From Methanooceanicella nereidis (GTDB lineage Archaea; Halobacteriota; Methanocellia; Methanocellales; Methanocellaceae): 64,000 nt of DNA. The notes beneath the pieces were generated by a model that was not told where the DNA came from, made no database searches, and saw only the letters and a program-made list of their open reading frames with translations. The translations under genes were made by a program, and so were the position numbers. The number at the start of each line of letters is the position of its first letter. The stretch's first letter is position 1. Of this stretch, positions 5,852 through 11,856 are shown piece by piece. Location of the stretch: contig NZ_PGCK01000009.1 in the NCBI RefSeq assembly GCF_021023085.1, positions 62,001 through 126,000 of the forward strand, given 5' to 3'.

Positions 5852-6448
5852 TCATTTTTTAGTATCGGCCATGAGTGTTAATTTACTGGCTTTCCAATCA
5901 ATTCCGGAAGCCAGAGCTTGTAACGATGAAATGATACACATCATGAAAGCGGCCATAAAAAGTACTGTGTTGTAAGGTTCAGGGGATACTAATCCGGCCA
6001 TCAGGAGCATTATCCTTTCCGGCCGTCCGAACATGGCAGCATTTGAATCGAGGCCTTTCCTGTGATTATAAACCCTCGATGCCATGAGAAGAACAGAGCC
6101 TGCCACGACCAGAAAAGCGGAGACTGGTGCGCCTCCGAGGACAGCGCCGGTGACGAGTAAAAGCTCAGAGCACCGGTCAGAGCAGCTATCAAAGTATTTA
6201 CCAAACTCAGTACAGAGGCCGCATGCTCTCGCGAATGATCCGTCAAGGGCGTCAAGACAGGCTCCGGCAAAGAAAAGTATGATAGCGGCATAGAGGTGGC
6301 CTGACATGGCAAGCGCACCTGCAATGCCGGAAATGAGCAAGCCTGACGCGGTTATCATGTTCGGCGTCACTCCTGCTGCAAATAATGCCCGTGATATTGA
6401 GAGCAGGAAACGGTCCTTCTGTGGCTTATACGCGTAAAGCATGCTCAT
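5852..6448 (-). CDS. CDP-alcohol phosphatidyltransferase family protein
   Basis: A 198-residue integral membrane enzyme with the full family signature DG-x2-AR-x8-G-x3-D-x3-D near residues 70-92 (DALDGSFAR, then G, then two Asp), with hydrophobic helices on both sides. Such enzymes move a phospho-alcohol from a CDP-lipid to a polar head such as inositol phosphate, serine or glycerol phosphate, using divalent metal held by the aspartates. The substrate cannot be told from sequence; archaetidylinositol-phosphate synthase-like activity is one option. Last gene of the TetR operon, 12 bases after the membrane flavodoxin-like gene, with a GGGGT ribosome binding site. Confidence 0.85.
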   Translation of the reverse strand: MSMLYAYKPQKDRFLLSISRALFAAGVTPNMITASGLLISGIAGALAMSGHLYAAIILFFAGACLDALDGSFARACGLCTEFGKYFDSCSDRCSELLLVTGAVLGGAPVSAFLVVAGSVLLMASRVYNHRKGLDSNAAMFGRPERIMLLMAGLVSPEPYNTVLFMAAFMMCIISSLQALASGIDWKASKLTLMADTKK

Positions 6449-6460
6449 TTTCGGTTACCC

Positions 6461-7027
6461 CTATTGTAGAAGAGTTGTGACAAACACTGCACATTTACTG
6501 TCCGTATCATCCTGAGGGATCAGCTTTACGACAGCATCTATCATGATCGGGCTATCATCCGGAAGCGGAGCCGCTTCTTTTTGCAATTGTCCTGCATCGG
6601 AGATACTGACCGAGCCGGTAGCGAACACCCCTATTTTCGCGTTTTCCGAAGGCTTCATCGAAGCCAGATATTCCCGGACAGCACTGCTGGCATTACCGGC
6701 ATATATAGGTCCGCCGACAACTATGACGTCGTAACCGGACTGGTCAGCGGCTGTCTGGCTTCGGATGCCCGATAGATCTACCACATATCCATTCGACTTC
6801 AGGTCATTTGCCACTGTCTCGGCAATGTTTTTAGCGCTACCCGAAATGCCCGGGTCATATACTACAAGAGCTTTACCGGTAACATCGCCTGCAGGGTTAA
6901 TTGTTTCAGACCCGGTTGCAGTATAGCTCATAACATCAAATATGACAAAGCCCAGTACGGCAAATACCGCCACGACTGCTAAAATAAGTACTGACCCGGC
7001 AGCCAGTAAGATCTTCTTGATATCCAT
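6461..7027 (-). CDS. Membrane-anchored flavodoxin-like protein
   Basis: About 188 residues: one N-terminal transmembrane helix (residues 5-30), a short linker, then a flavodoxin-like domain with a phosphate-loop-like segment (VYDPGISGSAKNIAETVA) and the middle strand VIVVGGPIYAGNASSAVREYL. Flavodoxin-like domains bind FMN and shuttle electrons or reduce quinone-like acceptors; this one would be held at the membrane. The start ATG at 7027 places the helix at the N-terminus; a TTG at 7045 would add six residues. Second flavodoxin-type gene in the TetR operon, 14 bases after the soluble one. Confidence 0.78.
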   Translation of the reverse strand: MDIKKILLAAGSVLILAVVAVFAVLGFVIFDVMSYTATGSETINPAGDVTGKALVVYDPGISGSAKNIAETVANDLKSNGYVVDLSGIRSQTAADQSGYDVIVVGGPIYAGNASSAVREYLASMKPSENAKIGVFATGSVSISDAGQLQKEAAPLPDDSPIMIDAVVKLIPQDDTDSKCAVFVTTLLQ

Positions 7028-7041
7028 ATTAACGACCTGTC

Positions 7042-7458
7042 TCAATTGCTTTTGATCATCTCTCTTGCGAATTTCCTCACGCCTTCCAGGTCTTCTTTGC
7101 CCGGGTGGCCCATATTAATGACAAGGAAAGCCCGCCCTTTACAATAATAACTTCCCAGGACAACGGCCCCCTTTTGTCTCAAGGCTTCAGACATTGCCCG
7201 GACCTCATTGCCTTCGCCGCTGCCGGAAGTGCCGAAGAGAGCGAACTTCCTCCCGGAAAGATCGTTTTTCTCGATGAACTTCGACATGTCTTCCCCCGGC
7301 TTATTCCCGTAATTCCCGCTTCCCAGGAAAACGACCTCTGCATCCGGCAGCGTAGTCAGCGACTTGATGCTCTCCGCCTCTGCGCCGATCTCATCCGCGA
7401 TAGCCATGGCCAGCTTCTTAGTGTTGCCGGTCATCGAGTAGTATAATACTTTGTACAT
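7042..7458 (-). CDS. Short soluble flavodoxin (TetR-operon copy)
   Basis: A 138-residue flavodoxin: N-terminal strand and FMN phosphate loop SMTGNTKKLA, central FLGSGNYGNKPGEDM and ALFGTSGSGEGNE loops that normally flank the flavin ring, and a C-terminal helix. It likely carries one or two electrons between cytosolic partners. It is clearly paralogous to the protein encoded at 10904-11317, with which it shares almost every motif in order. A GGAGGT ribosome binding site precedes the ATG. It lies 60 bases downstream of the TetR gene in the same direction. Confidence 0.88.
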   Translation of the reverse strand: MYKVLYYSMTGNTKKLAMAIADEIGAEAESIKSLTTLPDAEVVFLGSGNYGNKPGEDMSKFIEKNDLSGRKFALFGTSGSGEGNEVRAMSEALRQKGAVVLGSYYCKGRAFLVINMGHPGKEDLEGVRKFAREMIKSN

Positions 7459-7518: not shown

Positions 7519-8181
7519 TCAGGCCGCTTTTCGAGCTTTTTTTACGTTTTCGATGGAACGCATCATCATGTCCAGAGTAATATCGAAGAGCCCGTCCTGG
7601 TCCAGCCCGAACTTTTTCATATACATCATGGTGACCGGAGTGAGATTTAGCACGTCATTCGTCGAGAACAACATGACCAGTGTGGCTGCTTCAGGCTGGA
7701 CATCCTTCCTGATCGTCCCGTCCCTGATGCCCTCAAGGACAGCATCCACCACCATGCGGAAACTATCAGCCCGTATACGTCTTAGCTCTTCAAGTTCCGG
7801 GGAATCCTTCTGATCGAACATCCCGGAATGATAATACGCAGAGTAATAGCCAGGGTATTTTTTATAGAACTCATTGTAAGACATAATGAGTGACCTGACC
7901 TTCTCGATCCCGGTCGTTTTCCTCTGAGAGCATTCGGTGAATACCTGATTGACTATTTTCGAGGCGCGGATAGCGATTGAGACATATATATCCTCCTTGT
8001 TCTTGAAATACAGGTATAGAGTCCCCCTTGCCAGTCCCATCTCTTTTGCTATGTCATCCATTTTGACGTTCTCGTAGCCTCTGGAGAAGAACACTTTCTC
8101 TGCGGTATCGATGATCTCGTTTCGCCGCCACTCTTTTTCTCTCTCCTTCCTCTCTGCCTTCGACACTATTAATCGCCCCAT
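7519..8181 (-). CDS. TetR family transcriptional regulator
   Basis: A 220-residue regulator with the N-terminal TetR helix-turn-helix (residues about 15-60: IIDTAEKVFFSRGYENVKMDDIAKEMG split by its turn, then RGTLYLYFKNKEDIY) and an all-helical ligand domain. It heads an operon with two flavodoxin-type genes and a CDP-alcohol transferase, and its own promoter carries four evenly spaced palindromes, so autoregulation is very likely. The ATG lies only six bases from the first palindrome, and a TATA-like sequence about 23 bases upstream suggests a leaderless or nearly leaderless transcript. The inducing ligand is unknown. Confidence 0.9.
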   Translation of the reverse strand: MGRLIVSKAERKEREKEWRRNEIIDTAEKVFFSRGYENVKMDDIAKEMGLARGTLYLYFKNKEDIYVSIAIRASKIVNQVFTECSQRKTTGIEKVRSLIMSYNEFYKKYPGYYSAYYHSGMFDQKDSPELEELRRIRADSFRMVVDAVLEGIRDGTIRKDVQPEAATLVMLFSTNDVLNLTPVTMMYMKKFGLDQDGLFDITLDMMMRSIENVKKARKAA

Positions 8182-8186
8182 TTACG

Positions 8187-8256
8187 TGACACCATGTCAT
8201 AAATATATCATTGTGTCATATTTCTGACAACGTGTCATTATTTTGACGTAATGTCA
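8187..8256. promoter_or_regulatory. Array of four palindromic operators, 19-bp period (TetR)
   Basis: Four 13-bp sites of the form TGACA-N3-TGTCA begin at 8187, 8206, 8225 and 8244, exactly 19 bp apart. The first and third have perfect arms, the fourth has one mismatch (TGACG), the second has a weaker left arm (TATCA). They cover the start region and TATA-like element of the TetR gene and end just before a TATATAA element at 8264-8271 that could drive the divergent acetyltransferase gene. The TetR protein is the obvious binder. Confidence 0.8.
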
Positions 8257-8401
8257 TGATAAGTATATAAGGTTTTGCATAAGCAGAGTTATTACCCAAT
8301 TTGATTCTGGTCTAATTGCAACTGGAATTACAAATCATGGTACTTTATGAAAGAACAAGAGATGGTAAGTATTATAACAGGTCAGCAATGAAGGTTTATC
8401 G

Positions 8402-8860
8402 ATGAGTAACATCGTTTTTTCAAGCGTATCGGAAAGCCCGGAAGTCCAGGGCATTGTCGCCCAATGGTTATGGAGTTTCTGGGGCAATACTCGAAACTAT
8501 GAATTTTACAGGAGCCTTGTGGCGCATTGTAAAGCCGACGATATCCCCATGATGTACGTCGCATATCATGACGGTATGCCAGTCGGCACTGTCGCGCTGT
8601 TAAGGGCGGACCTTTTCTCCAGACAGGATCTTTTCCCATGGATGGCGGATCTCTACGTTCTACCCGAATATAGATCCAAAGGTATTGGCTCTGCCCTTCA
8701 GGACTTTGTGTTAAAAAAAGCAAAAGAGCTGGGATATGGGACGATATACCTTTACACGCCCCTGACCGGCTATTATGAAAAGAAAGGCTGGGAATATATG
8801 GGAAATGAAATGGAGAGGGATGGCGAGATCGTACGGATATATAAAAAGAAGATCGTATGA
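8402..8860 (+). CDS. GNAT family N-acetyltransferase
   Basis: A 152-residue protein with the GNAT fold: strand MMYVAYHDGMPVGTVAL, the acetyl-CoA loop motif A (YVLPEYRSKGIGSALQDFV), and the C-terminal YEKKGWEYMG segment found in many small-molecule or peptide acetyltransferases. It would move an acetyl group from acetyl-CoA to an amine; the substrate is unknown. Transcribed divergently from the TetR operon with the operator array between them, so it may share the same control. Its ATG lacks a strong ribosome binding site. Confidence 0.85.
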   Translation: MSNIVFSSVSESPEVQGIVAQWLWSFWGNTRNYEFYRSLVAHCKADDIPMMYVAYHDGMPVGTVALLRADLFSRQDLFPWMADLYVLPEYRSKGIGSALQDFVLKKAKELGYGTIYLYTPLTGYYEKKGWEYMGNEMERDGEIVRIYKKKIV

Positions 8861-10903: not shown

Positions 10904-11317
10904 ATGTGCGAAGTATTATATTATACAATGGGCGGAAGCACCAGGAAGCTGGCTGACGCTATAGCCGGAGAGCTTGGCGTCACGGCGAAGAGCATCAAGT
11001 CGCTCTCTACGTTGCCGGAAGCTGAAATTTTATTCCTGGGCTCCGGCTGCTACGGAGGTAAACCGGCTGATGACATGATGAAGTTCATTGAAGGGAATGA
11101 TTTCACGGGCAGGAAGACGGCACTATTCGGCGCATCTGGAAAAGGAGAGGGAAAAGAGGTGGATGCTATGGAAGAGGCGCTGAGTAGAAAAGGTGCGGTC
11201 GTAATCGGAAAATATAACTGCAAGGGAAGGGCTTTTCTTATTATGAACATTGGCTTCCCGGGGAAGGAAGACTTCGATGCAGCGAAGAGATTCGCAAGGG
11301 AGATGGTAAAGGCTTGA
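10904..11317 (+). CDS. Short soluble flavodoxin (MarR-operon copy)
   Basis: A 137-residue flavodoxin with the FMN phosphate loop TMGGSTRKLADAIA, flavin-flanking loops FLGSGCYGGKPADDM and ALFGASGKGEGKE, and the same C-terminal KGRAF and PGKEDF elements as its paralogue at 7042-7458. It likely exchanges electrons with cytosolic or membrane partners. A GGAGG site lies seven bases before the ATG, and the stop codon overlaps the TTG start of the MarR gene, indicating translational coupling. Confidence 0.88.
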   Translation: MCEVLYYTMGGSTRKLADAIAGELGVTAKSIKSLSTLPEAEILFLGSGCYGGKPADDMMKFIEGNDFTGRKTALFGASGKGEGKEVDAMEEALSRKGAVVIGKYNCKGRAFLIMNIGFPGKEDFDAAKRFAREMVKA

Positions 11318-11856
11318 CGGATATAGATGAAGTAAAAGACATGATGGGCTCCAGCCGGCTCGACATGGCAAGATTCATCCTCATCATGTTCTTTATGATA
11401 GAGCAGCGATGGAGGTATATTATCGAAAAGGAACTGGAACCGGACGGTATCACCACGAAACAGTGGCTCATGCTCATAATCATAGGCGCCGGTTTCAGGC
11501 ATGCTCCGTCCATACAGGAAGTCGCGGACGCCATGAGCACGACACACCAGAACGTCAAGCAGATCGCTGCCAGCATGGAGCGGCGCGGTTTCATGACCCT
11601 GGAAAGGGACGAAAAGAACAAGCGTATAATCAGGCTTAAGGTTACCGACCAGTGCCATGACCTGTTTAAAAGGCGTGAGGATAATGACATTAAGGCGATG
11701 CTCAACCTGTTCGAGAACCTGACCGATGAAGAGATGAGATCGCTGTTCGAGATAATAGCCCGGCTTGAAAAGAGAGCAGAGTACCTGTATGAAGAGGCAA
11801 GGACGACAAGGTTAAGCCAGGCAAATGAGAATTCGGGAATGGAATATAAAGAATAG
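11314..11856 (+). CDS. MarR family transcriptional regulator
   Basis: A 180-residue winged-helix regulator: helix TTKQWLMLIIIGAG, recognition helix region MSTTHQNVKQIAASME, and wing RDEKNKRIIRLKVT, as in MarR proteins that bind palindromes as dimers and release DNA on binding small aromatic or oxidising ligands. The start is probably the TTG at 11314, overlapping the flavodoxin stop by four bases with GGGAG upstream; ATG 11341 is an alternative that would lose nine residues. It most likely controls its own operon through the three palindromes upstream of 10079. Confidence 0.88.
   Translation: MTDIDEVKDMMGSSRLDMARFILIMFFMIEQRWRYIIEKELEPDGITTKQWLMLIIIGAGFRHAPSIQEVADAMSTTHQNVKQIAASMERRGFMTLERDEKNKRIIRLKVTDQCHDLFKRREDNDIKAMLNLFENLTDEEMRSLFEIIARLEKRAEYLYEEARTTRLSQANENSGMEYKE

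Follow-up and report, generated by a model that had tools for sequence, protein, structure and literature searches.

A four-site array in exact 19-bp register downstream of a TetR promoter in Methanooceanicella nereidis: a predicted autoregulatory operator

The question raised by this locus is whether four regularly spaced inverted repeats upstream of a TetR-family gene in Methanooceanicella nereidis, a methanogenic archaeon of the family Methanocellaceae, form an operator and, if they do, which protein would bind there and which genes it would control. The window, by which we mean the whole stretch of DNA analysed, is 64,000 nucleotides long (contig NZ_PGCK01000009.1, positions 62,001 to 126,000 of the forward strand). 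The features of the locus, in window coordinates and in the order in which a leftward-moving polymerase would meet them, are as follows.

8402–8860, plus strand: GNAT acetyltransferase, the divergent neighbour; its control by the array is not supported
8264–8277, minus strand: BRE-like CAAAAC (8277–8272) and TATA box CTTATATA (8271–8264) of the tetR operon, assigned from sequence, BRE/TATA score and relatives
8244–8256, minus strand: putative operator 1, the closest of the four to the tetR TATA box; reads TGACATTACGTCA on the tetR strand and starts 15 bp after the TATA start
8225–8237, minus strand: putative operator 2; TGACACGTTGTCA on the tetR strand, an exact TGACA-N3-TGTCA
8206–8218, minus strand: putative operator 3; TGACACAATGATA on the tetR strand, with one degenerate arm and two mismatches
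8187–8199, minus strand: putative operator 4; TGACATGGTGTCA, exact, ending 20 bp before the likely tetR GTG codon
7519–8166, minus strand: TetR-family regulator (Pfam PF00440), its start placed by orthologue starts
7042–7458, minus strand: flavodoxin (Pfam Flavodoxin_3), gene 2 of the presumed tetR operon, on the same strand after a 60-bp gap
6461–7045, minus strand: flavodoxin-like protein with an N-terminal hydrophobic segment, gene 3; a 48% identical gene lies in the operon of the relative G003
5852–6448, minus strand: CDP-alcohol phosphatidyltransferase, gene 4; a 61% identical gene lies in the G003 operon

The dyads start at 8187, 8206, 8225 and 8244. Each is 13 bp long and stands 6 bp from the next without overlap, so that every interval is exactly 19 bp, as a preliminary description of this DNA had reported. 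That description had also given all four as TGACA-N3-TGTCA; the four dyads do exist, but only those at 8187 (TGACACCATGTCA) and 8225 (TGACAACGTGTCA) fit the consensus exactly, with one mismatch at 8244 (TGACGTAATGTCA) and two at 8206 (TATCATTGTGTCA). Over the four sites, 37 of the 40 arm bases match. The poor arm of operator 3 counts against a uniform four-site reading.

The array is real and is not a chance arrangement. The analytic probability of three or fewer mismatches in 40 was 3.9e-19 per position and about 5e-13 when the whole window and 19 registers are counted, figures that give an order of magnitude only because the consensus was picked after the sites had been seen. The window contains 26 copies of TGTCAT, whose sole fixed-period run of at least three is formed by the four array copies at 19 bp. 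When four related genomes were searched for a 19-bp tandem motif pair with no more than three mismatches, only the three overlapping pairs of the array itself were recovered, and the reversed-pattern control gave zero matches. Identity between units was 85% in the arms (10 columns) vs 35% in the spacers (9 columns; column-permutation p = 0.0003), and Tandem Repeats Finder detected no 19-bp repeat at the array. Taken with the pair-search and chance results, the contrast between arms and spacers and the missing tandem repeat argue that the array is neither a recent duplication nor an accident. The tandem-pair pattern had no other match of comparable quality in the organism's own genome, which fits a local autoregulator. 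Among the own-genome candidates set aside were single exact copies of the motif (L001, L002 and L004), which lie in coding sequence or between convergent gene ends, and an 18-bp pair with three mismatches (C6:145346), which appears to sit within a coding region and was taken as chance.

On the tetR strand the order of elements is CAAAAC-CTTATATA-CTTATCA-TGACATTACGTCA, the last being operator 1. The BRE/TATA element at 8277–8264 had the highest score of the whole tetR upstream region. Its TATA element scored 8.6 when read leftward vs 6.2–6.8 when read rightward, and the BRE-like AAAAC flanks the box on the side that fits a leftward promoter. The box was assigned to tetR because it is conserved and tetR-facing in related promoters, and we read the element as the one that faces and drives tetR. 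Two parts of the preliminary description had to be given up at this point: the "rightward TATATAA box" is better taken, from its score and flank, as the leftward tetR promoter, and the array does not cover the tetR TATA element, since it begins just downstream of it; the other tetR TATA element that the description placed within the array is not the conserved one. Translation of tetR probably begins at the GTG at 8166 rather than at the ATG at 8181, because the resulting VSKAERKERE aligns with the orthologue starts MSRAERKERE and MSTAERKERE. Archaeal initiation generally lies about 29 bp from the TATA start; by that rule tetR transcription would begin near 8242, immediately beyond operator 1, with the array lying between about −15 and +55. 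In the TetR paralogues L113, L127, L099 and L106, the first ATG of several frames falls within or upstream of the operator array; the automatic starts of these genes are probably too early, the true start being an M or V about 17 residues before the helix-turn-helix domain.

The protein belongs to the TetR family by its TetR_N helix-turn-helix (PF00440, 60 bits against a cut-off of 24, residues 23–67). Its score with the FadR equivalog NCBIfam NF053878, a model of bacterial FadR, was 62.7 against a cut-off of 200 bits. The G003 operon runs tetR, MFS transporter, flavodoxin-like protein, CDP-alcohol phosphatidyltransferase; an MFS transporter thus replaces the first flavodoxin of the window operon and the remaining order is kept. 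The own-genome paralogue L113 has a flavodoxin next downstream, and downstream of L100 lie genes for FMN reductase and an MFS pump. Judged from this gene content, the regulator is likely to repress its own operon, one of a stress or efflux type, until a small molecule relieves the repression. About 2.7 kb from the tetR-flavodoxin operon, a second flavodoxin (10904–11317, plus strand) overlaps a MarR-type regulator gene (11314–11856, plus strand), so that a flavodoxin beside a one-component regulator recurs in this stretch.

The association of the motif with this TetR protein was examined in 41 TetR genes, gathered by domain search from four Methanocellaceae genomes. When the 220 bp preceding the domain were scanned blind for a pair of similar dyads with constant spacing, 14 of the 41 promoters gave an uncorrected p of 0.05 or less, where about two were expected, and the commonest period was 18 bp. 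Tandem dyads are thus common upstream of the TetR genes of this family, contrary to the earlier supposition that regular spacing is rare for a single repressor. A matrix was then made solely from the four window sites and run over all 41 promoters. Among the other 40, it ranked L120 (G003; 64% identical to the window TetR) first and L111 (G002, which we take to be Methanocella arvoryzae MRE50; 45–50% identical) second, with L099 close behind. The protein tree grouped the window TetR with L120 and L111 (support 98/95) and placed L099 in the next clade. The core also appears to follow the class of recognition helix: cores of the TGACCATNGGTCA type occur in the LAKG clade, whose TGACCAT-type sites are spaced at 18 bp, and cores of the TGACTNNNNGTCA type in the VAQG clade. 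The sites of L108 (MNKA) are of the TAACCAT type and spaced at 19 bp, those of L093 (LSKP) of the TTACT type and spaced at 18 bp. With four dyads beside the gene and a motif that tracks its orthologues, the array has the marks of a palindromic operator next to its own regulator gene, and the sites are, as first proposed, TetR-type operators, most likely those of the adjacent TetR. LNKA-clade orthologues in other families of the phylum (L072–L088) had no comparable arrays before the gene, and a related-locus search of genome contigs found distant bacterial TetR proteins only.

The spacing comparison suggested at the outset was favourable. L120 has site spacings of 20 and 19 bp, the third site being poor, and L111 has two sites at 19 bp, the first of them poor, before tetR itself. 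In all eight TetR-clade promoters compared (the window and seven relatives) the distance from the TATA start to operator 1 was 14–15 bp, an agreement whose weight is limited by the hand-picking of operator 1 in the seven relatives; operator-to-operator spacing was 18–20 bp, and in seven of the eight the TATA box in question was the best or joint best of its upstream region. Because the promoters and genes of the relatives share ancestry, conservation of motif and geometry is partly dependent evidence.

A homologous four-site array was found in G002, and no other single comparison is as strong. Its pair-search match, 1.2 kb before L111, is the promoter of an operon encoding a PEMT-like methyltransferase, a small protein and TetR. 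There GATGCAAACCCTTATATACTTATAG is followed by four TGACA-core sites at exact 18-bp steps (4576, 4594, 4612 and 4630 in L123; 1, 1, 2 and 1 mismatches), the first of them 15 bp from the TATA start; the promoter element reads CCCTTATATACTTATAG vs ACCTTATATACTTATCA in the window. By sequence comparison the four-site array is shared with G002, with the pitch shifted by one base in all three intervals together. An 18-bp pair pattern run over the four family genomes returned this array and one weak site apparently in a coding region. Over 394 genomes of the phylum the pair pattern occurred at five places, as did the reversed control, so the count itself is uninformative; four of the five places are at TetR promoters and the fifth is at the G002 tetR operon. 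Operator number varies, which counts against the autoregulatory reading: the window has four, G003 has two plus a poor third, and G002 has one plus a poor second directly before tetR, though four before its operon. In L123 (4669–5734) a PEMT/ICMT-like membrane methyltransferase and a small lipoprotein-like protein use the four-operator promoter together with tetR, and this methyltransferase/lipoprotein-like/tetR operon is a predicted target.

Several other arrangements of sites came to light. In another family of the phylum, L090 and L091 (G152 and G129) belong to a TetR clade in which TGACC...GGTCA-like sites occur in pairs at the TATA box, about 16 bp from each other, and paired operators thus extend beyond Methanocellaceae. 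Upstream of the TetR gene L097 (G003:C26) are five near-identical GACTAAG(A)GTCAGTCAAACT units of about 20–22 bp, and upstream of L102 (G003:C161) are three near-identical ACCGAAACGGTTGTGACA units at 18 bp; both suggest how arrays of this sort may arise by duplication. In the own genome (G000:C4:214383-214493; L003 1487–1597), a TrmB-like gene and the TetR gene L110 converge, and the DNA between their 3' ends carries six TGAYA-N3-TGTCR-like dyads grouped in three pairs, with 14 bp from dyad to dyad in each pair and 42 bp from pair to pair. They are preceded by a minus-strand CCCTTTTATAG box, antisense into the TrmB gene, for which no convincing ORF accounts.

We consider it very probable, from the comparisons above, that the array is the autoregulatory operator of the TetR encoded at 7519–8166 on the minus strand, with dimers bound side by side over the start site. 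In this mechanism one dimer would occupy each dyad and neighbours would follow at 19-bp steps, beginning just past the TATA box and covering both the start site near 8242 and nearly all of the leader. Occupancy from about −15 to about +55 would block recruitment of RNA polymerase or initiation, and a ligand would free the dimers and derepress the operon of tetR, two flavodoxin genes and the CDP-alcohol phosphatidyltransferase gene. What we infer here is that the adjacent TetR binds and that it represses instead of activating, together with the position of the start site and the involvement of a ligand. Steps of 18 and 19 bp amount to roughly 1.7 and 1.8 turns of the helix, which would put adjacent dimers on different faces; cooperative binding at the array is plausible, and both it and the stacked dimers of the preliminary description are hypotheses.

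Other readings of the array were weighed against this one. That it is a non-functional tandem duplication, or minisatellite, has next to no likelihood: near-identical units in other TetR promoters (L097 and L102) allow that operator arrays may originate by duplication, but here the arms are far better conserved than the spacers, no tandem repeat was detected, and relatives keep the geometry. The sites might instead belong to another regulator, such as the MarR protein at 11314 or a TetR paralogue, that controls tetR. The own-genome TetR L110, of a different clade, has TGAYA-N3-TGTCR dyads nearby, so half-sites overlap and cross-talk is possible; yet the window motif scores best before orthologues of the adjacent TetR and the core differs from one TetR clade to another, and we regard ownership by another regulator as very unlikely.

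An arrangement of the tetR/tetA kind, in which the array would repress both tetR and the divergent acetyltransferase, the latter from a rightward TATATAAG box at 8264, seems to us unlikely, though less so than a foreign owner. The TATA element is nearly symmetrical, a rightward GATAAG-TATATAAG can be read, and such a box would lie 8 bp from the end of operator 1. The rightward reading nevertheless scores lower and implies a leader of about 110 nt. Orthologues of the acetyltransferase (63–71% identical) lie away from TetR and lack the sites in three relatives, so that the suggested control of this gene found no support, and at the closest orthologous tetR the operators are present with no convincing divergent neighbour. 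The gap between tetR and the acetyltransferase gene is 220 bp, and in Streptomyces a divergent gene was not repressed by TetR-type regulators when more than 200 bp lay between them (PMC3511530). Somewhat less improbable, but still not expected, is a binding unit other than one dimer per 13-bp dyad, namely alternate-phase dyads (TGTCA-N6-TGACA) or the half-sites of a filament, with a stoichiometry other than four dimers. Half-sites alternate along the array, so that dyads exist between units too, and a dimer-of-dimers mode of binding is known for the archaeal TetR protein FadRSa (PMC6449355); against this, the symmetry in the LAKG clade passes through the centre of the 13-mer (TGACCATTGGTCA), which favours the 13-bp unit.

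TetR operators with multiple sites are already known. The window places four in-register sites downstream of a TATA box, 15 bp from its start and at 19-bp steps, an arrangement of the EthR or MDR1 kind. MDR1 of Archaeoglobus fulgidus, a metal-dependent repressor that is DtxR-like and so of another family than the window TetR, binds several operators downstream of its TATA box cooperatively, and the multi-operator mechanism proposed for the window array is similar. EthR of Mycobacterium tuberculosis is a TetR protein with an operator of roughly 55 bp that, to our knowledge, lacks four clear dyads in exact register; its promoter, unlike that of the window, is bacterial. According to the title cited in PMC5895659, EthR octamerizes cooperatively on its operator, and several dimers per operator region is the stoichiometry expected of the array. 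For MDR1, as cited in PMC2995911, TBP and TFB stay bound, so that on release only RNA polymerase must bind. FadRSa of Sulfolobus acidocaldarius, like the window protein an archaeal TetR-family member, is an autoregulator whose site lies shortly past the start of transcription; it can bind cooperatively, and once bound it promotes the binding of TBP/TFB and does not prevent it, repression being thought to act afterwards (PMC6449355). Its control region differs from the array in having a single semi-palindromic motif, to which a dimer of dimers binds, and not four in-register dyads, and the window TetR falls below the cut-off of the bacterial FadR model. ActR and SCO7222 of Streptomyces are TetR-type proteins with three repeated sites and three protein–DNA complexes each (PMC3511530); unlike the window TetR they repress a divergent target, and they have no TATA-anchored register. 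Ss-LrpB of Sulfolobus solfataricus binds three targets cooperatively in its own control region, its interacting dimers wrapping about 100 bp (PMC2995911), and differs in being an Lrp-family protein that both activates and represses. The array, with its separate 13-bp dyads, also differs from a QacR-type operator, in which two dimers on opposite faces share an overlapping palindrome. The literature searched, which was partial in coverage, contained no match to an exact-register array anchored to an archaeal TATA box and reused by paralogues with differing cores.

We raise, tentatively and with more doubt than belief, a geometric rule for the TetR proteins of Methanocellaceae, in which a dimer pitch of 18–19 bp and a TATA anchor of 14–15 bp are held while the letters and the pitch of the whole array evolve; the possible example is the G002 operon, where all intervals are 18 bp against 19 bp in the window and the anchor is kept. 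If the rule were true, the TATA complex or dimer–dimer contacts would form part of operator recognition. Very few archaeal TetR regulators have been studied, and a set of paralogous promoters with fixed TATA–operator distance and pitch and a changing core offers a natural experiment on how archaeal initiation is blocked; the same set bears on whether dimer–dimer packing matters. The geometry offers a simple prediction of TetR operators and true start codons in these methanogens, and the array is a candidate multi-operator switch for methanogen genetics.
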